Assembly: GCA_017621055.1 (NCBI GenBank)
Contig: JAGATX010000015.1
Coordinates: 37,535-101,534 of the forward strand
Origin: Muribaculaceae bacterium
GTDB taxonomy: Bacteria > Bacteroidota > Bacteroidia > Bacteroidales > Muribaculaceae
DNA: 64,000 bases
Direction: 5' to 3'
Position 1 is the stretch's first letter; every line of letters starts with the position of its first letter. The position numbers and the translations under genes were made by a program. Shown piece by piece: positions 1 through 8,836 of the stretch. A model generated the notes under the pieces. The model was not told where the DNA came from. It ran no database searches and saw only the letters and a list, made by a program, of their open reading frames with translations.

Positions 1-758
1 CCGCGGGTGGCTATCAGCGGCAGCTGCATGGAGTGGCTCTGGCGAGTGAGAGTGGAGGCGAGTTCGCCGGCGAAAGGCTCCAGTCCCGTGCGCAGATGGC
101 GGAATGCCGCCGGCGACAGGCCCGCGGCATCGGCCTGATAGACGGCGAGTGTGGCTGCGTAGCCGTCGTTCCAGCTTATGCTTCCTATCTGCAGAGCGTC
201 GATCATCGCATCATGACGGGCGGAGAACGACGCAAGAGTCTGCTCGCCAACGGTGCCGGGCTGCTGCGACAGATAATCACGCAGATAAGCCGTCAAGGCG
301 GCGTCGGCCTCGCTTGTGCCTGAATTGGAGAAATTGCGTAGCCCGCTGAGCGTGCGCGAGGCACGTTCGTGCTCATAGCTCCGGAAAGTGCTCCACATCG
401 TAGCCACCGAATCCACATCGGCTATGGCCGCGTTGCCTATGGCACGAGCGCAAAGCACATAGTTTACCGTATAAATGGCGGGTACGGCCACATAGGCCAC
501 GACAGCGAAAGCACCGATAAGACTCACAATCCTTACGGTAAGCCAGTTGCGCATATCCGCAACACTTGTTTTGGATCGCACGAGGAAGAACATCGATACC
601 GCTCCTATCAGCGCTGCCAAAGCCGTGCTGACTATAACCAGCAAGGGTGCACAGCCCGCCAGAGTCAGACCCACATAGCAGCAACCCATTATCAGCAGCC
701 ACCCTACGATGGTGATAATCAGTCCTAAAGATATGAATTTGCCACTTTTATGTTGCAT
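1..758 (-). CDS. Membrane protein of unknown function, 3' end beyond the window
   Basis: An open frame begins at ATG 758 (MQHKSGKFISLGLIITIVGW) and stays open to the left edge, giving at least 252 codons, so the C-terminus is not seen. The first 60 residues hold two hydrophobic segments (about 8-25 and 35-60). A third lies at about 75-100 (IVSLIGAFAVVAYVAVPAIY). The rest, from residue 105 on, is soluble and helical, with many Ala, Ser and Arg residues. I do not recognise the family. The gene lies 21 bp after the subtilisin-like gene on the same strand, so it is probably the next gene of the SrfB/SrfC-like operon. Three hydrophobic segments followed by a soluble domain suggest an inner-membrane component of that module. 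The reading frame is secure; the function is unknown. Confidence 0.8.
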   Translation of the reverse strand, partial: MQHKSGKFISLGLIITIVGWLLIMGCCYVGLTLAGCAPLLVIVSTALAALIGAVSMFFLVRSKTSVADMRNWLTVRIVSLIGAFAVVAYVAVPAIYTVNYVLCARAIGNAAIADVDSVATMWSTFRSYEHERASRTLSGLRNFSNSGTSEADAALTAYLRDYLSQQPGTVGEQTLASFSARHDAMIDALQIGSISWNDGYAATLAVYQADAAGLSPAAFRHLRTGLEPFAGELASTLTRQSHSMQLPLIATR

Positions 759-779
759 ATCCGGTAATATCTTGATAAT

Positions 780-2651
780 TTATGAATTAGCCTTGATAAA
801 GAATGGAGTTCCGTGATGAAACCAGTCGGCGTCGACCCCCGAGACGAGCGCTTTGCCGGCATCGTCGGCACTCAGCGTTATGCGGGCGGCTCCGAACGAC
901 ATTTCACCATCGCCGGCAGCAGCCGACACTGTCAGAACTATATCGTTGCCATTGGCAGCGGCGGTATATGCGGCATCGACAGGCGTCAGGTTCTCGCGGT
1001 TTGAGCTGTACAGCAGACGGCCTCTATTGGCCGACGTGGGCTCCAGCTCGACAGTAACAATGGGCGGCAGCGCCGTGCTGTCGGCTATATCGAGGTACCC
1101 GAGCATACAGAACTTATAGCGGTCGCCGCTGCCGCGCGTTATGCTGTTTTTCACCGCCGCGAAGTCCGATACGGTGTTGTACACGGCCTCTACTGCCGGT
1201 CCCGTCTGCACGATCGGCCCTATGGTTGTGCTGCCGGTGACCGGCAGACCCGTATTCTTGAGTATGGATATTATCTCTTCGGTATTGAGGGTGGGATCCA
1301 CACTTTTCATCAGCCCTACCGTGCCGGCGACGATGGGCGACGAGAAACTTGTGCCGTCGACCAGCATATAACCTTCCGTGCCGGGAACGATGCCGGGGAC
1401 CTGGACTCCGGGCGCCGAAACAGTGCTCTCATATATCTGACGGTCAGCGAAATTACCGAAATTGCTGAAATCGGCCTTGTGCATAGTGGCGTCGACCGAC
1501 GATACCTTGATGATATTGTCGCCGCGTTTTGAGGCATCGAGTGCCGTGAACACATCCTCGTTGCCCGCCGCCCATACAAGGGTGACATAATTCCGCTGGG
1601 CCATATCATATACATAGTGCCACACGTTCTCCTGAGCCAGCAACTCAGTGCCGGCGGCAGCTATCTGCTGCTCCACGGGCCAGCCCGCGACCTCCTCGGT
1701 GAAAGCCAGGCCGGCCGATATGTTGATAACCTGCGCACGCTTGTTTATGGCGTAGAGAATGCCCTGCAGCATTGCCAGGCAACCGAAGCGGTGGCCCAGA
1801 CTTACGGGCATGAAACGGCAACGCGGTGCCACACCGGCGCTGGAGCGCCCATTGCCGGTGGCGCCGAGAGCCATGCCGGCCACCATGCTGCCGTGGGCAT
1901 AGACAGGATTGGGCCGCTGCGCGTTATAGTCCGACGGCAGGCTCACGTCGCTGTTGCCGTTGGCCACAGAGTAAGGCTCTACAATCTCTGTCGAGGCAAA
2001 TTCCACATTCTCGAGGTCGAAATAGCTGTCGACGACGGCAACGGTGACATCGTTCGAACCCATGGTTATGTTCCATGCGTCCGGTATCTTCATCATATCG
2101 AAATAATATGCATGCCCGGCATTGCGGAATACCGGATCATTGGGCGTTTCGCCCGTTTCCATCACGCTCTCGTCGAAGACCATGAACGGTATGTCCGGGA
2201 TTTGCCCGGGCAGCGCTTCCATAATCTCCACTCGGCGCTCCGCCGGGACCTCTATCGACATCAGCTTGGTGTTGGGGTCGTAGAACAGAATGCGGTATTC
2301 GTCGCCGGGATAAAGCTCGTGAAAACGGTTGCACCACTGCTCGTACTCGGCCTGACCGGTCTCCGAATCGAAAAGTACATTCAGCCGGTTGGCGACGACC
2401 TGCCGGCCGCCCTCGTCGATGATATCCTCATCGTTGATGGGGGGTATCACCTCGCTGACGGGGCGGTCGGGCAGCGTTGCGTCCACGCTGTCGTCCGTAC
2501 ATTGACGGAACTGACTAAGCAGGAACAGGAAAATCGCCAGCAGAACCATGAAAAGGATACTGCGCCACAGGCATCCTCCGCAACCCCACGGCTGCCAGAA
2601 AAAGTAATGCCATTTGACAGGTCCTTTCGAATCGAAATGTACTCGCTTCAT
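780..2651 (-). CDS. Membrane-anchored subtilisin-like (S8 family) serine peptidase
   Basis: A 623-residue protein with one membrane helix at about residues 31-47, after a short charged and aromatic N-terminus and with no obvious cleavage site, so it is probably anchored. The S8 catalytic set is visible: Asp208 in VAVVDSYFD, His253 in YAHGSMVAG, the oxyanion Asn364 in WAAGNED, and Ser435 in VDGTSFSSPIVAG. Residues 500-623 form a beta-rich tail without a motif I recognise. I place the start at ATG 2651 (MKRVHFDSKG); an in-frame upstream extension would overlap the SrfC-like gene and has an implausible composition. It lies 40 bp after the SrfC-like gene and 21 bp before the next membrane protein gene, all on one strand. 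S8 enzymes usually cleave proteins outside the cytoplasm; a role in processing or quality control for this operon is inference. Confidence 0.88.
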   Translation of the reverse strand: MKRVHFDSKGPVKWHYFFWQPWGCGGCLWRSILFMVLLAIFLFLLSQFRQCTDDSVDATLPDRPVSEVIPPINDEDIIDEGGRQVVANRLNVLFDSETGQAEYEQWCNRFHELYPGDEYRILFYDPNTKLMSIEVPAERRVEIMEALPGQIPDIPFMVFDESVMETGETPNDPVFRNAGHAYYFDMMKIPDAWNITMGSNDVTVAVVDSYFDLENVEFASTEIVEPYSVANGNSDVSLPSDYNAQRPNPVYAHGSMVAGMALGATGNGRSSAGVAPRCRFMPVSLGHRFGCLAMLQGILYAINKRAQVINISAGLAFTEEVAGWPVEQQIAAAGTELLAQENVWHYVYDMAQRNYVTLVWAAGNEDVFTALDASKRGDNIIKVSSVDATMHKADFSNFGNFADRQIYESTVSAPGVQVPGIVPGTEGYMLVDGTSFSSPIVAGTVGLMKSVDPTLNTEEIISILKNTGLPVTGSTTIGPIVQTGPAVEAVYNTVSDFAAVKNSITRGSGDRYKFCMLGYLDIADSTALPPIVTVELEPTSANRGRLLYSSNRENLTPVDAAYTAAANGNDIVLTVSAAAGDGEMSFGAARITLSADDAGKALVSGVDADWFHHGTPFFIKANS

Positions 2652-2691
2652 ATTATATTGATATTGATTGATTTTTCGGAATTTCGGGCAG

Positions 2692-5628
2692 TCAGCAGCT
2701 CGCTTTGAGGCTCTCGAGCAGTTCGCCCAGAGCGTGGTTGGCTTCCGGGCTGAGATCCGACCGCTTGATGTGCACCACATAAGCGATGGTCATATACTCT
2801 TTCCATTCGTTGTAATGGCGATCGAAAGAGTCGGTGAGCGAGCCTCCGCCCTCAAGCATACGGCCGAAGAGTTCCTCGAGTTCGTCGTGGCTGTAGGTGC
2901 TCCGGCGTTCCCGGTTCATGTAGTCGAAAGCGGGCAGGTCGTTTTCCTTGATTACCAGGCGTGCCTTGCTCTTGAGTTCGTCGCTGAGCATGGAGTAGCC
3001 GAAATCATTGACAAAGGTATTGATTATCGACGACATCATGTCGGCCACCAGACTCTCCTTCATCTGCGCCAGGTTGGCGATGGTTACTTCCGAGGTTATC
3101 TTATCGGCTATATAGTCGGCCAGATGCACACGCTCGGCGCATTCTATCAGCGTGTTGACCATATCCTTCATCAGCACGGGGTCCACGCCGTCGTCGCCGG
3201 AGAAGGTGTTGACAATCTCCTCGGAATGCAGTTTCGCGCGCCACAACTCCATGATATGGTCAGCGATGAAGACCTGGTTGGTCTTGGGCCGCAGTTTGTC
3301 GCTGAACAGAAGCTCGGTGTTGATGTTCCGGCGTGCCATGGCCTGCTCGGCCATGGCGCGTGTGCGCCAGTGGTAAGCCTTCATGAGACGTTCCCATTTC
3401 TCGTCGATGGAGCGGCAGTCCTCGAAGTCGTTGCACGAGCGGCGGATGATCTGGTATTCGCGGAAATTGTTGATTGTTTCGTTGAGGTCGGTGCCGTTCA
3501 CGAGTTTATGTACCACCCCGAGGCATTCCACCTCCGTAACCTGCAGTGCCTGGAGAAGGTGCCCGAAGAAGTAGTTGTCGGCATCGCACGCAAGGTCGAG
3601 TTCCCATCGCAGGTTCATGGCGTTGTCGATGTTGCGGAGCAGTTTTTCAGCCTCGTTGTCACTGTCGTATTCTGCGGCGAGGATATCGCGCACCTTGCCC
3701 ATTATGCGGCGGCGTTCACGCGTCATCTGCTCGTCGCGTATCGCTGCCGCCGCGCGCGACACCTTGTTCATGCGGTCGATGATATACAGCGAACCGTCGT
3801 TGTTCACCGTGGCGGCGACGTCCCACGCGAGTTCGGGGTCGAAGAAAAGCTCGCGGACACTCGAATTGGAGATGAACGTGCGCCGCAGAAGACGATAGAA
3901 ATCCTCGCTCATCTTCAGCCCTTTCTCGGGCGACGACGTGGCAACGTCGTAGCCTTCGAACATGCCGTTGCCCTGTGCCGTGCAAGCGCTGAAGGCATAG
4001 GACCGGAGAAGATAGGTATCCTTGAACGAGTGACCGGAAGCGTCCCAGTTGCGGAACCAGTCAACATTCGTCCAGTTGAGCACGGCGTCGAGAAGAACGG
4101 TGCGGAAGCGGTCCTCCCAGCGGTTGTTCACCGCCGGCTCTTCGTTGTGGCTTCGAAGGTCCTTCTCTGTCATGTCGATGTTTATCTTGGTGGCCACAAG
4201 CATCAGCGGCGAGATGCCGCCGGTGCGGCGCAGCGTTTCGGCGCGTTCGGCGGCGTCGGCGCCGACGTTGCGGCGCACCCACTGGTCCAGAAGGATGTGC
4301 AGGTTCTTCACCTCGCTCTGTTTGTGGTGGTGGCAGAACATGAGCACCTTCATCATGTGGCTCTCGCTGTAGTGATTGAACAGATATGCTATCTTTCCGC
4401 GCAGGAAAAGCTTTACCAATACGCTCTGGCCGCTCTTGTCGCGTTCGCCCTCGCGGCAGTTCGCTTCATCCTGCTGTTCGGGTGAGCGTGCGCCGGGGAA
4501 ATCGAGCAGATCAGTATCGTTCATCAGCGATTTATCCACCGTTGGCGTGAGCTTGCGCCAGGCCGCCGAAGGCAACCAGCCGGGCCGGCCGTCGTTGGCG
4601 CCGTCATAGCTGTAACTAAGCTTCTCGTCGATGTACTCGGGGTCGATTTTGAAAATGACCTCGGCGGAAATGGCGCACAAGTCGCACGTGGCGTAGCCGG
4701 TCACCTCGCGCAGCTCGCGGGGCGACGGCGACGGAACATAGACCGACGTCTTTATCGGCCATTCGGCATCGTCGAGGCCGTTGAGACATGCCACCGACAT
4801 GATTGTGCGCTTGTTTTCGCCACCGTGCATCACCGTCTCGAGGGGCACATAGACCTCAGCGGCAAAATCGAGCGCGGAGAGGTCGCCGACAAGACGCTCG
4901 AACAGGCGCGATATTGCGGCATTCTCGTGCCAAAGGTATTTGAGCACCGTCACCCATTCTGCAGGTGGCACGCGCCGTATCACCCTTGCAAGCGTTTCGA
5001 AGAGTTTGCTGCGCCGCATACCTTGTGTGGGCGACGGCAGATAGCTCTCCAGGTAGCTCTTTACATCGAGAATATCGTCCTCGGTGAGATATGCATGTGC
5101 ATTCTCCTCACGCGTGGCATAACTGTGGTATATTCTCTCGGCGATTTCGCGCAGTTCCTCATCGGAGTACTGGCCATAGTCTCGGATATTGGAATAGTAT
5201 CCGGCAACGAGAATGGAAACCAGCTGACCCGGACGCAGCAGCTTGACAATCACCGGATAGTCCTTGTTGTATCGTTCGGGGTTGCGGCTGAAACTTGTCA
5301 GGCGCGTCACCACGCCGGTGGCTTCGCGGTCATCGCCGATGGGATTTATCTGGTCCACGAAGCCCACGCCCTCGGGATATTTGCTCGATTTTATCCTGAA
5401 GGGTTTGTCTGTGCGGTTCAGGAGGGTGTTTATCTGATAGCTCTTGCCGGTCTGGCTCTCGCCGAAGGCCCCGATTGCCGGGTTTTCGTCCATTGCCATC
5501 TTCTGGCGCAGCAGCCGGCGCCGTCCCTGCACGAACTCTATGAAATTGTTCTCGTACTGGTCGGGCTTGTTGGCCTTGAGCCATGCCAGACCGTCGTTGA
5601 GAAGTTTGATATCGTCGTTTATTGTCAT
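2692..5628 (-). CDS. SrfC-like large P-loop GTPase
   Basis: A 978-residue protein with a Walker A/G1 motif GESQTGKS at residues 56-63, a G3-like DLLDFPGAR further on, and a possible G4 LVATKIN. The long helical C-terminal half recalls dynamin-like GTPases. Size, motif layout and position directly after a SrfB-like gene match the putative virulence factor SrfC family, first named in Salmonella srfABC. No membrane segment is evident, so it is probably cytoplasmic or membrane-peripheral. The start ATG 5628 lies 40 bp after the SrfB-like stop. No SrfA-like gene is seen; a subtilisin-like gene follows instead. The biochemical role of SrfC proteins is poorly defined, so GTP hydrolysis coupled to the neighbouring ATPase is inference. 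Family assignment is from motif reading only. Confidence 0.82.
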   Translation of the reverse strand: MTINDDIKLLNDGLAWLKANKPDQYENNFIEFVQGRRRLLRQKMAMDENPAIGAFGESQTGKSYQINTLLNRTDKPFRIKSSKYPEGVGFVDQINPIGDDREATGVVTRLTSFSRNPERYNKDYPVIVKLLRPGQLVSILVAGYYSNIRDYGQYSDEELREIAERIYHSYATREENAHAYLTEDDILDVKSYLESYLPSPTQGMRRSKLFETLARVIRRVPPAEWVTVLKYLWHENAAISRLFERLVGDLSALDFAAEVYVPLETVMHGGENKRTIMSVACLNGLDDAEWPIKTSVYVPSPSPRELREVTGYATCDLCAISAEVIFKIDPEYIDEKLSYSYDGANDGRPGWLPSAAWRKLTPTVDKSLMNDTDLLDFPGARSPEQQDEANCREGERDKSGQSVLVKLFLRGKIAYLFNHYSESHMMKVLMFCHHHKQSEVKNLHILLDQWVRRNVGADAAERAETLRRTGGISPLMLVATKINIDMTEKDLRSHNEEPAVNNRWEDRFRTVLLDAVLNWTNVDWFRNWDASGHSFKDTYLLRSYAFSACTAQGNGMFEGYDVATSSPEKGLKMSEDFYRLLRRTFISNSSVRELFFDPELAWDVAATVNNDGSLYIIDRMNKVSRAAAAIRDEQMTRERRRIMGKVRDILAAEYDSDNEAEKLLRNIDNAMNLRWELDLACDADNYFFGHLLQALQVTEVECLGVVHKLVNGTDLNETINNFREYQIIRRSCNDFEDCRSIDEKWERLMKAYHWRTRAMAEQAMARRNINTELLFSDKLRPKTNQVFIADHIMELWRAKLHSEEIVNTFSGDDGVDPVLMKDMVNTLIECAERVHLADYIADKITSEVTIANLAQMKESLVADMMSSIINTFVNDFGYSMLSDELKSKARLVIKENDLPAFDYMNRERRSTYSHDELEELFGRMLEGGGSLTDSFDRHYNEWKEYMTIAYVVHIKRSDLSPEANHALGELLESLKASC

Positions 5629-5668
5629 AGTAGTCGGAATGTGAGTGATTGGTAATGAAACAAATGCA

Positions 5669-8600
5669 TCAGCGGCTCTCTACGCTGAGTTCGAATTCGC
5701 CTTTGTCGAGCCAGTGCTGGCCATCGTTGATTATGGACTGACCGATGAACTCAACGGCGTCGAGAGGCACGGCGTCGCCGTTGCTGTCGACGATATCCTC
5801 AACAAACAGCTGCTCGGGATCGCTCTGGAAGTCGCGGCTGAGGGTGAGGCTGAGGGTGCGCCGACCGCTGTTGTTGTAGAGGGCATAGATGGGGCGCCCG
5901 TCGTAGTGCGGCTGGTCGAACTGCTTGGTGCCGAAGAACGCCGGGAACACAGACAGTGTGATGTTCTCGCTGTTGTGGCCCGGTGTGAGCAGCGTGGTGC
6001 TCATGCGGTCGCCCTGATAGAGGTTGATATAGTTTGCCGTGCTGCCGAAATGGCGGAGCATATCGTCGAATTTCACCGTCATGCCGTTGAAGCTCTCGGT
6101 GGAGGCCAGATAGCCGACCATGGCGCCGACGGCAACCACGGCCTTCTGATCGCGGAAATAGCCTTCGGGGTCGGCAAGGGGATACCACTGACCCACGCGG
6201 TACTGATTTAGGCGCACAAGGCGGTCGGGTGTTACAGGCACATACTTGACAAACAGCTCGGTGATGGCGTCGATCGATGTGGGGCGGCCTGCAAGGACGA
6301 TGATGTCGCAGTGATGTGCGTAGAGCACAACCGATATCTGCTGCATGAGGCGTTCCATGGTTGATTTCACCATGTCTGCCACTCGTTTGGGCTCGTAGCG
6401 CCATTTGAGGTCTTCGAACCGGAAACCGAAATGGTCGGCGAAATAATCCAGCAGATACGTCGAGGGCTTAAGACCCGAGAATATCTCGCCGTAGGTATAT
6501 ACCTTCGACGGGCGGTTGAGGCGCAGCTGCTCCATGAAGAACTGTGCCATGGGGTGCGAGATCTGAGTATTGAAATCCACGCGGCAACGGCGGTCCTTGT
6601 CGTCCATCATAGTGCTGTCCACGCCGAAGAAATTGCGTATCAGACCCGATGCGAGGCGCTGTTTCAGCTGTTTGAGCTCGGCCGGATTGCCCTCGGCCGA
6701 CCGCAGGTCGCTGACGGCGCCGCGATAGTAGCTGTGACGGCTCATCACGGGTATTTCCGCTATTTCGTCGGTGCTCATCAGCATCAGCCGGTTTGTCAGC
6801 GCCGAGAATATGCTGCCCATTTCGGGGTCGTCGCTGTTATGGTCCTGAATGATGATATTCTGGATGATATTGCGCAGTATATCGTCGCCGGCCACATAGA
6901 AACTGTCCCAGAACAGCGGGCGTGGCGTCAGGGTGCCTGCATCGTTGCCCGAGCACATGTAGGAGCATACCATCACGTCGGTGGTGCCGGCGCCGATATC
7001 CACCGACGCTACTGTGATGGCCTTGTCGGTATATCCTTCAGCGGCAAGTTCGGGACGCACATGCCCCTTGAGGTCGAAAAACTCGCGGGCGCGTCCCTTG
7101 TATCGCTCGGCAATCTCGGCGTAAAGATACACGAGCTGGCAACAGGTGGCCTCGTCGTAGGTCCATGTGCCCTTACTGATGTCGTAATCGGCATCATCGG
7201 GCTTTACTGACAGTTTTTCCACGCTGGGATATACATTTATCTGCGGCAGGCTGTCGGCCGGATATATCTGGGAAAGAGCCTCGAAGGCATCGGCAGCGCA
7301 CTGGCGCAGTTTAATCTGCTCGGCCTTGGGCATTGCCGTGGGGCACGTCAGGATGAGGTTCCGGAGCACACGTTTGCAGTTGATGTCGCCGTGTTTGCGG
7401 AATTCCGGCGAATTTATCTGCATCAATGCCTGTTGAAGCACTTCCACCATGACGAACGTCATCAGCGACGCACGCGAGTAGTGGGTGTGTCCGTCGGTGG
7501 CTTCCAGACAGTTGAAAGGATCGCGGATATATTCGCCGCGGGCGTCGAAGAGGTCGGAAAGTCCGGGAACATAGATGTTTTCGGCCTCACGGATGTACAG
7601 CGGGTCGTTCTCCGTGGTGAGGAACTGCCATTTCTGCTTGAACAGACGGTTATCCCACAGGTATCGCTTGGGGCTGGAATAGTTGGTGGTGCTTGTCCAC
7701 AGGTCATCGCTCTCCACCGAGCGGTATACGAGTTTCTTGGCTTCTTCGCCCACACGCACCATCGACGGATAGCGGAACATATCCTCATCCTCGATAACGA
7801 TATCGTTGGCGAAATCAGCCTGGCGGAACACCAGCCGCATGTCGAAGGGCTGTTCGTAAGTCTCCGCCGGATCGGTAAGGTCGCGCAGAGTCAGCATGGT
7901 AACCTTTGTGAAGTCACCGTTTTCGAACAGCAGTCCGCAGGTGCGCGAGTTGCCGATATCGAGCACGAAATCTACGGGGATCTCGCGGTCCTTTGGGCAA
8001 CGGTGGAGTGTGACCTCCGGAGCGGCGCCGCACAGGCGGATGTAGTTTATCAGATAGATGTACCAGCCGATGTAGCGATAGGAATTATTCAGGGGATCGA
8101 GGCCCAGCAGTTCGGCGATATAGTGGCTGAATACCGTAAATTCGCCAGTGGGTGCCATGAAAGTCAGCAGCGACGATACCTTGTTGCTCACGGCGAACTC
8201 CATGCGGTCGATGCCCTCGACGGGGAACGACGGGCGGTGCATGGCCATGTCGTCGGTACTGATGCCGGTGTCGAAGGCCCATGTAAAGCGGTAGCGGTCC
8301 TTGCCGGGCTCGCTGCCCTGCCCTATGCGGTCGATGCGCAGACGGCACCACGAATAAGGCACATCGCCGCTGACACCGTGCTGCATCTCGAACATGGGCA
8401 TGGGCAGCCATTTGCCCAGCACGAGTTCGAAAGCCGGCACACGCTCGTGGACATTCGACGGATTAGGCGTCTTGAAAGCCGACGGTGAGTTGAAGGTATA
8501 TACTTTTTCGTTGTCGCCGGCATCGAGCTGAGTAAAGAGCGTGGCGGCGACATCGCGGCGCATGATCTCCACACCGCCCTCGTCGAGACGGGCACGGCCG

Positions 8601-8836
8601 TCGGCAAGATACTCTATCGACCGCGAAGTCAGTATCTCGTTGACGGGTATATACTTGCCAACGGTGGTATTGTATGTCAACAGGTCGAACAGTCGTTCGC
8701 CCGTCATTTCGTTCTTTATGTTGCAGAAACTGTAGCGCAGCGGGCGGCCGCCGGGCAGCACAAGCTGCTGTTCGGGGTCGAGCTCAAGCTCTACGGTGTG
8801 GAACTGGATGCCGCTGTCGGCAATGAGGTGTAACAT
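5669..8836 (-). CDS. SrfB-like protein with actin/Hsp70-type ATPase fold
   Basis: About 1055 residues. Three ASKHA nucleotide-binding elements are visible in order: phosphate-1 VLDIGNSRTCGLLFE at about 292-305, phosphate-2 SVDIGAGTTDVMV at about 612-624, and an adenosine-type motif IIVLAGRPTSIDAI near 880. An Hsp70-like connecting motif LILTCPTAMP lies at about 495. This pattern and the size fit the SrfB family. The N-terminal 290 residues are specific to the family. I prefer ATG 8836, 25 bp after the rlmB stop; a TTG at 8875 would add 13 residues and overlap rlmB by 14 bp. SrfB was named as an SsrB-regulated Salmonella gene, but its molecular activity remains unclear. Its pairing with a SrfC-like GTPase is conserved in the family; pairing with a subtilisin-like protein is what stands out here. 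Confidence 0.85.
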   Translation of the reverse strand: MLHLIADSGIQFHTVELELDPEQQLVLPGGRPLRYSFCNIKNEMTGERLFDLLTYNTTVGKYIPVNEILTSRSIEYLADGRARLDEGGVEIMRRDVAATLFTQLDAGDNEKVYTFNSPSAFKTPNPSNVHERVPAFELVLGKWLPMPMFEMQHGVSGDVPYSWCRLRIDRIGQGSEPGKDRYRFTWAFDTGISTDDMAMHRPSFPVEGIDRMEFAVSNKVSSLLTFMAPTGEFTVFSHYIAELLGLDPLNNSYRYIGWYIYLINYIRLCGAAPEVTLHRCPKDREIPVDFVLDIGNSRTCGLLFENGDFTKVTMLTLRDLTDPAETYEQPFDMRLVFRQADFANDIVIEDEDMFRYPSMVRVGEEAKKLVYRSVESDDLWTSTTNYSSPKRYLWDNRLFKQKWQFLTTENDPLYIREAENIYVPGLSDLFDARGEYIRDPFNCLEATDGHTHYSRASLMTFVMVEVLQQALMQINSPEFRKHGDINCKRVLRNLILTCPTAMPKAEQIKLRQCAADAFEALSQIYPADSLPQINVYPSVEKLSVKPDDADYDISKGTWTYDEATCCQLVYLYAEIAERYKGRAREFFDLKGHVRPELAAEGYTDKAITVASVDIGAGTTDVMVCSYMCSGNDAGTLTPRPLFWDSFYVAGDDILRNIIQNIIIQDHNSDDPEMGSIFSALTNRLMLMSTDEIAEIPVMSRHSYYRGAVSDLRSAEGNPAELKQLKQRLASGLIRNFFGVDSTMMDDKDRRCRVDFNTQISHPMAQFFMEQLRLNRPSKVYTYGEIFSGLKPSTYLLDYFADHFGFRFEDLKWRYEPKRVADMVKSTMERLMQQISVVLYAHHCDIIVLAGRPTSIDAITELFVKYVPVTPDRLVRLNQYRVGQWYPLADPEGYFRDQKAVVAVGAMVGYLASTESFNGMTVKFDDMLRHFGSTANYINLYQGDRMSTTLLTPGHNSENITLSVFPAFFGTKQFDQPHYDGRPIYALYNNSGRRTLSLTLSRDFQSDPEQLFVEDIVDSNGDAVPLDAVEFIGQSIINDGQHWLDKGEFELSVESR

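Follow-up and report, generated by a model that had tools for sequence, protein, structure and literature searches.

The 64,000-nt stretch of contig JAGATX010000015.1 from a gut bacterium of the Muribaculaceae (G000:C23:37535-101534 in this analysis, G000 being its genome), hereafter called the window and used as the frame for coordinates, opens with reverse-strand genes for SrfB, SrfC, a subtilisin of the peptidase S8 family and a multi-helix membrane protein. The locus is a genuine system of several genes, about six of which form a core within a run of eight; its distribution is patchy, and transfer appears to have occurred among Bacteroidota and Fibrobacterota. Comparison of the predicted proteins shows a SrfA-type, putatively cytoplasmic domain and a membrane helix joined to interchangeable outputs: a subtilisin in Bacteroidota, and a trypsin, a jelly-roll domain, a vWA domain or the SrfA C-domain in Proteobacteria. 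We propose, at a probability of roughly 0.6, that the extended SrfABC system is a nucleotide-gated inner-membrane protease platform, whose nucleoside triphosphatases (NTPases) would switch a periplasmic subtilisin. Annotations have long called SrfABC a virulence factor, and to our knowledge there is no agreed mechanism for it. The proposal offers a testable one, in which SrfA is an adaptor at the membrane and its output end, a protease in many bacteria, can be exchanged. The proposal would link SrfABC to the DO-GTPase conflict systems, and it suggests proteolytic switching from inside to outside, which could be followed biochemically.

Composition and conservation of the srf operon

The srfB gene (5669..8836, reverse strand) encodes a large ASKHA-type (actin/Hsp70-like) ATPase of 1055 amino acids (aa), and srfC (2692..5628, reverse strand) a large P-loop GTPase of 978 aa. 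SrfB matched PF07520 with 523.7 bits (cut-off, 27.1; E = 1.3e-156) and SrfC matched PF10139 with 325.2 bits (cut-off, 28.1; E = 1.3e-96), identifying both as the SrfABC components that a first-pass annotation, made from the letters alone, had named. The SrfB motifs DxGNSxTC, DIGxGTTD and GxP, which mark its nucleotide site, were invariant in nine diverse sequences; in 82 aligned rows of SrfC, the G1 motif GxSQxGKS and the D, P and G of DFPG were invariant, with the F present in 79. Hydropathy predicted no membrane helix in either protein. A PDB sequence search gave no clear relative of SrfB (one match, at 0.21), and the PDB matches of SrfC, consisting of designed helical proteins (best, 2.1e-7) and nanobodies, were judged to reflect chance or composition.

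The S8 gene (780..2651, reverse strand; 623 aa) had its start set at 2651 by homology, because alignment with relatives begins at residue 44 of the longer frame. The protein carries a PF00082 domain (E = 2.6e-31) with the Asp-His-Ser triad motifs, which makes it a peptidase S8, and a single predicted N-terminal helix (residues 27-45), so that the anchored protease with a complete triad was correctly recognised along with all three Pfam families. Its catalytic domain is predicted to be periplasmic. Among 81 aligned rows, two of which are the window's own, Asp was present in 78, His in 79 and Ser in 74, the remainder being gaps. The window edge truncates the fourth gene (1..758, reverse strand; the whole gene runs from -228 to 758 and encodes 328 aa). 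Its product had been described as a three-helix membrane protein; the membrane assignment (from hydropathy) and the three hydrophobic regions hold, but the helix count probably does not, because the first region (about residues 7-61) is long enough for two helices, making four probable.

The intergenic gaps between these four genes are 40, 40 and 21 bp, in line with the close same-strand spacing (21-41 bp) noted at first pass, and srfB begins 25 bp downstream of rlmB. The set had been taken to comprise four genes; the window edge interrupts the operon, however, and in the assembly the tightly packed run comprises eight. Past the 328-aa gene lie those for a second P-loop GTPase (657 aa) and for proteins of 671, 309 and 598 aa, with gaps of 5, 3, 6 and 30 bp. 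The 671-aa protein has one helix (residues 528-546), the 309-aa protein is N-anchored, and the 598-aa protein combines macroglobulin-like repeats (PF17789, 8e-11) with a hydrophobic C-terminus. Genes for three N-anchored DUF2135/P-domain-like proteins (matches below the Pfam cut-offs) begin 306 bp past the 598-aa gene and overlap by 4 bp, and lon comes next.

Within the family of the second GTPase, 7 of 28 members matched DO-GTPase2 (best, 7.1e-6) and 5 of 28 DO-GTPase1 (best, 7.6e-8), both at E up to 0.1, and the TPR-like YfiO model was matched by five of the 28. The motifs G1, [ED]xxGE and [TS]KxD are retained in nearly all of 74 rows, and the family profile had a weak PDB match to TPR-type lipoproteins (0.0022). 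Because its gene follows that of the GTPase, the 671-aa protein was considered as a GAP1 candidate and rejected: none of 28 family members matched the GAP1 models at E 0.1. GAP1-N2 is absent from the window genome, and a PDB sequence search with the 671-aa family gave nothing meaningful.

A SrfB-alignment scan of named genomes yielded at least 534 relatives, and the comparisons use the best 80, a sample that leans to close relatives. Seventy-two of these loci are testable (at least 1.2 kb past srfC), the other eight having been dropped because contig ends cut them; gene calls were mechanical, and some apparent gene losses may be misses. A protein matching the S8 profile lay at most two genes past srfC in 72/72 testable loci, and a catalytic-domain profile recognised the S8 catalytic domain in 70 of them. 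Where at least 5.5 kb past srfC is available (65 loci), the second GTPase is present in 63 loci and the membrane-protein family in 60, bearing out the expectation that the S8 and membrane genes would be linked to srfBC in related genomes. Gene order is kept in the 72 loci, down to about 30% SrfB identity. These data support SrfB, SrfC and S8 as genuine and conserved as a single operon. The members are Bacteroidota and two Fibrobacterota metagenome-assembled genomes (MAGs). One further locus, from a 'Clostridiales' MAG, is almost identical to a Prevotella locus (L100 against L101), its placement probably being a binning error; the Alloprevotella MAG CALUNU01 carries two strongly diverged copies of the system (L047, L108).

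SrfA-like architecture of the protease and its exchanged outputs

About 150 N-terminal residues of the long S8 relatives match SrfA. The NCBIfam SrfA model (NF040486) matched the N-terminus of the Runella (2.5e-24) and Fibrimonas (9.3e-7) S8 proteins, both below its 150-bit full-length cut-off; the value for the Flavobacterium enshiense S8 was 0.084, and the Gelidibacter and G095 proteins gave no match. None of the operon proteins scanned (10 of 11) attained that cut-off as a full-length SrfA. In profile-profile comparisons, the SrfA-type N-domains of Proteobacteria matched the S8 N-domains with a probability of 99.0 and the N-terminus of the 598-aa family with 95.8 (five unrelated alignments, at most 0.3), and the 598-aa protein taken alone was matched weakly by the SrfA N-domain (0.0049 and 0.069). 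The domain behind the protease resembles the SrfA C-domain (probability, 96.9-97.7; seven controls, at most 0.4).

Among the 62 S8 proteins having the Ser motif, 31 carry the SrfA N-domain, and in 30 of those 31 a helix is predicted behind it. In the remaining 31, which include the window's closest relatives, the helix is present and the N-domain was not detected. The first-pass statement that Salmonella has SrfA in place of the S8 and membrane genes thus needs revision, since the S8 proteins of relatives are themselves SrfA-like (profiles, 97-99%). By these comparisons, the SrfA-type N-domain is gone from the S8 protein in the window's lineage and is present, in diverged form, in another operon protein, of the 598-aa family; the window S8 is related to SrfA-type output proteins, as judged from the profiles, through relatives only. 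Seven of the 62 proteins have a DUF2135-like (jelly-roll) domain joined to the C-terminal end of S8; in the window this domain is encoded separately. The jelly-roll profile used for labelling was built from five sequences. The best PDB matches of the domain were the C-terminal parts of subtilases (2.4e-7 to 9.4e-6).

The proteobacterial comparison comprised eight plasmid loci. There, the SrfA-type N-domain is followed by a trypsin-like protease in three loci (Mesorhizobium, Methylobacterium and Cereibacter), by a DUF2135-like domain in five, and by a vWA-annotated protein or its relative in two; other proteobacterial SrfA-type N-domains precede SrfA-type C-domains. A six-frame search of the eight stretches found no S8 catalytic domain. 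Genes for vWA, ABC ATPase and FtsX-like permease proteins lie past srfC in four loci (L157, L158, L159 and L160, by annotation and BLAST), and the proteobacterial genes past srfC showed no homology to the membrane or 671-aa proteins (best, 5.5%).

One objection to any joint function is that srfBC and the protease are packed together by chance or hitch-hiking, with a common promoter and no joint work. Single parts past S8 are indeed absent in some loci, L040 and L112 having neither the membrane protein nor the GTPase and L041, L046 and L107 having no membrane protein, and L087 and L101 are without a recognisable catalytic domain. However, the preserved gene order at low SrfB identity, the fusion of S8 to a SrfA-type domain and the trypsin in the same place in three of the eight proteobacterial loci all argue against this explanation, which we consider highly improbable.

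A candidate protease platform and its possible uses

The cytoplasmic, NTP-driven platform that we propose would consist of SrfB, SrfC and the TPR-bearing DO-GTPase-like protein. SrfA, SrfB and SrfC of Xenorhabdus co-immunoprecipitate and bind one another (PMC6950479), and by homology a SrfA-type domain should dock on SrfB-SrfC. The anchor helix behind this domain would place the protease across the inner membrane from the platform. From such docking and such anchor topology, the simplest machine would have its NTPase platform in the cytoplasm and use it to switch a protease in the periplasm: upon a putative trigger, the NTPase cycle would gate the S8 protein across the inner membrane, and the jelly-roll and macroglobulin-like partners may select or restrain its substrates. 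In the window's lineage, docking would run through the 598-aa protein, or directly through membrane partners.

Several points weigh against the platform. Docking in the window's lineage is its weakest link. The window S8 has a short N-tail ahead of the helix, with the SrfA N-domain absent, and the C-domain of its close S8 group scored 0.3 against SrfA-C directly, reaching it solely via other S8 proteins (95.3). The topology of S8 and its partners is based on hydropathy, and the 657-aa GTPase of the window genome matches no Pfam model. In L087 and L101, the SrfA/S8-type proteins keep their non-catalytic parts and have no recognisable catalytic domain, possibly reflecting another output swap or a lost protease. 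In addition, literature searches found no functional account of any Bacteroidota member.

As for its use, an accessory conflict or envelope-guard system, acting against invaders or envelope damage, would be not quite an even bet. We favour this role because of the patchiness and apparent transfer of the operon, its putative DO-GTPase kinship, BREX in Runella, type I restriction genes in G095 and the E1 gene in G086. Of 118 genomes surrounding that of the window, 11 carried SrfB; of 395 drawn from across the phylum, 2 did (both counts include G000). In the SrfB tree, Fibrobacterota fall among Flavobacteriia, Cyclobacteriaceae and Bacteroidales (Shimodaira-Hasegawa-like approximate likelihood ratio test, SH-aLRT, 97-100; a quick method, without bootstrap), and this mixing suggests transfer between phyla, with MAG errors possible. 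On a Runella plasmid (L148, 170-14724), an annotated BREX lies directly upstream, 1.3 kb from the srf operon, and in G095 genes for type I restriction lie at about 7 kb (R) and 12 kb (M) from the operon. In the srfB-srfC-S8 variant of G086 (C685; L031:1548-4046, L032:3181-6884), a ~325-aa gene separates srfB from srfC; the variant adjoins a ThiF/E1 gene (7.7e-51) as well as genes for ubiquitin-like and E2-like proteins, whose matches fall below cut-off.

Other features of the surroundings count against a conflict role. Defence genes flank the operon only sometimes, and we claim no enrichment in defence islands: in a PADLOC scan of the flanks (290 of 302 selected proteins, 12 being left out, from about 55 loci), the matches were scattered, with one or two proteins per family among the first 25 families listed of 119 and the first 25 of 40. 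In the window's genus, the operon follows rlmB in 5/5 members with a readable junction, G041 having one gene between. From this constant site, the operon there looks inherited and often lost, and is unlikely to have arrived by recent transfer. G027, a genus member without SrfB, has a solitary relative of the 671-aa gene directly after rlmB (L153:2073-3794), which may be a remnant or an independent use.

Genes that we take, from their sequence, to be integrase-like lie upstream in 6 of the 80 loci, many upstream flanks being short; in one batch of 148 flanking proteins, 5 matched integrase models. In seven of the 80 (L043, L049, L063, L064, L067, L068 and L070), a gene that is presumably NusG/UpxY-like lies just upstream of srfB, suggesting antitermination of the long operon. 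A phage origin was considered and rejected, with no SrfB among 50,697 phage records and no relatives of SrfB among seven pattern-matching stretches from viral contigs.

The platform might instead serve envelope maintenance or the processing of surface proteins, governing how periplasmic or exported proteins are proteolytically matured or quality-controlled, like mycosin in type VII secretion, with no invader involved. Mycosin is the closest NCBIfam model to the window S8, below its cut-off, and the vWA, ABC ATPase and FtsX-like permease genes past srfC in half of the proteobacterial loci point the same way. Furthermore, Salmonella srfC and srfABC mutants swarm poorly (PMC4219756), a defect that fits envelope processing at least as well as a conflict role. 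On the other hand, patchiness and apparent inter-phylum transfer would be unusual for a maintenance function, and family-model scans recognised no secretion channel among the operon proteins. We regard envelope processing as a serious rival, if a rather unlikely one.

A cytotoxin or virulence device aimed at hosts or rivals, the reading that the virulence-factor annotation and the Xenorhabdus report would suggest, appears distinctly improbable. Purified Xenorhabdus SrfA, SrfB and SrfC are reported to be cytotoxic to HeLa cells (PMC6950479), whereas here SrfB and SrfC have intact nucleotide sites and no predicted membrane helix, the protease is membrane-anchored, and the operon or its srfBC core occurs in environmental and gut Bacteroidota, in Fibrobacterota and in plant symbionts.

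In its broadest form, which we hold with more doubt than confidence, the platform reading would make SrfB-SrfC a general membrane-bound NTP-driven switchboard, with SrfA-N as the adaptor for swappable periplasmic outputs (subtilisin, trypsin, jelly-roll and vWA, and perhaps macroglobulin/transglutaminase-like proteins). The Bacteroidota form, with its DO-GTPase-like protein, would then be an uncatalogued conflict system that works by proteolysis at the outer face of the inner membrane.

Comparison with known systems

The first-pass view that no described system has this set of genes stands within the models and literature searched. None of the PADLOC 2.0 system models matched the operon (10 of 11 proteins scanned), which gave one generic subtilase match (9e-9) and one further weak match (0.082), on a low-complexity stretch of an operon protein. 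The literature searched, chiefly outside subscription journals, held no account of a protease-bearing srf operon or of the shared SrfA domain.

The mycosin of type VII secretion is likewise a membrane-anchored S8 protease and is the best NCBIfam match of the window S8 (TIGR03921), at 80.8 bits against a cut-off of 278.75 (117-130 bits in five relatives). The anchor of mycosin is C-terminal, whereas that of the window S8 is N-terminal. In FtsEX/MacB-type ABC systems, cytoplasmic NTP use drives periplasmic enzymes. The idea of an NTP drive is common to both, and srfABC of Enterobacter sp. 638 has a gene for an FtsX-like permease next to it, three other loci having permease genes or relatives of this gene; the difference is that the operon proteins scanned gave no ABC ATPase or FtsX-like match.

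The srfABC operons of Salmonella, Xenorhabdus and Rahnella share SrfB and SrfC by Pfam, together with the SrfA-type N-domain, which is found in the S8 proteins of relatives and, diverged, in the 598-aa family. In contrast to these operons, the present one has no full-length SrfA and has a subtilisin on the SrfA-like protein, an extra GTPase and several membrane or periplasmic partners. Kaur et al. (2020, PMC7159879) describe DO-GTPases, whose partners include Hsp70 and peptidases, as the switches in conflict systems and predict GTPase-switched effectors, often near the membrane; the words SrfB and SrfC are absent from the main text of that paper. The DO-GTPase/GAP1 and Hsp70 conflict systems presented there resemble the operon in having a GTPase switch (in the operon, one putatively related to DO-GTPases), an ASKHA ATPase, membrane partners and a peptidase. 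They differ in that no GAP1 domain was found in the operon, and in that its peptidase is an S8 protease of predicted periplasmic location.

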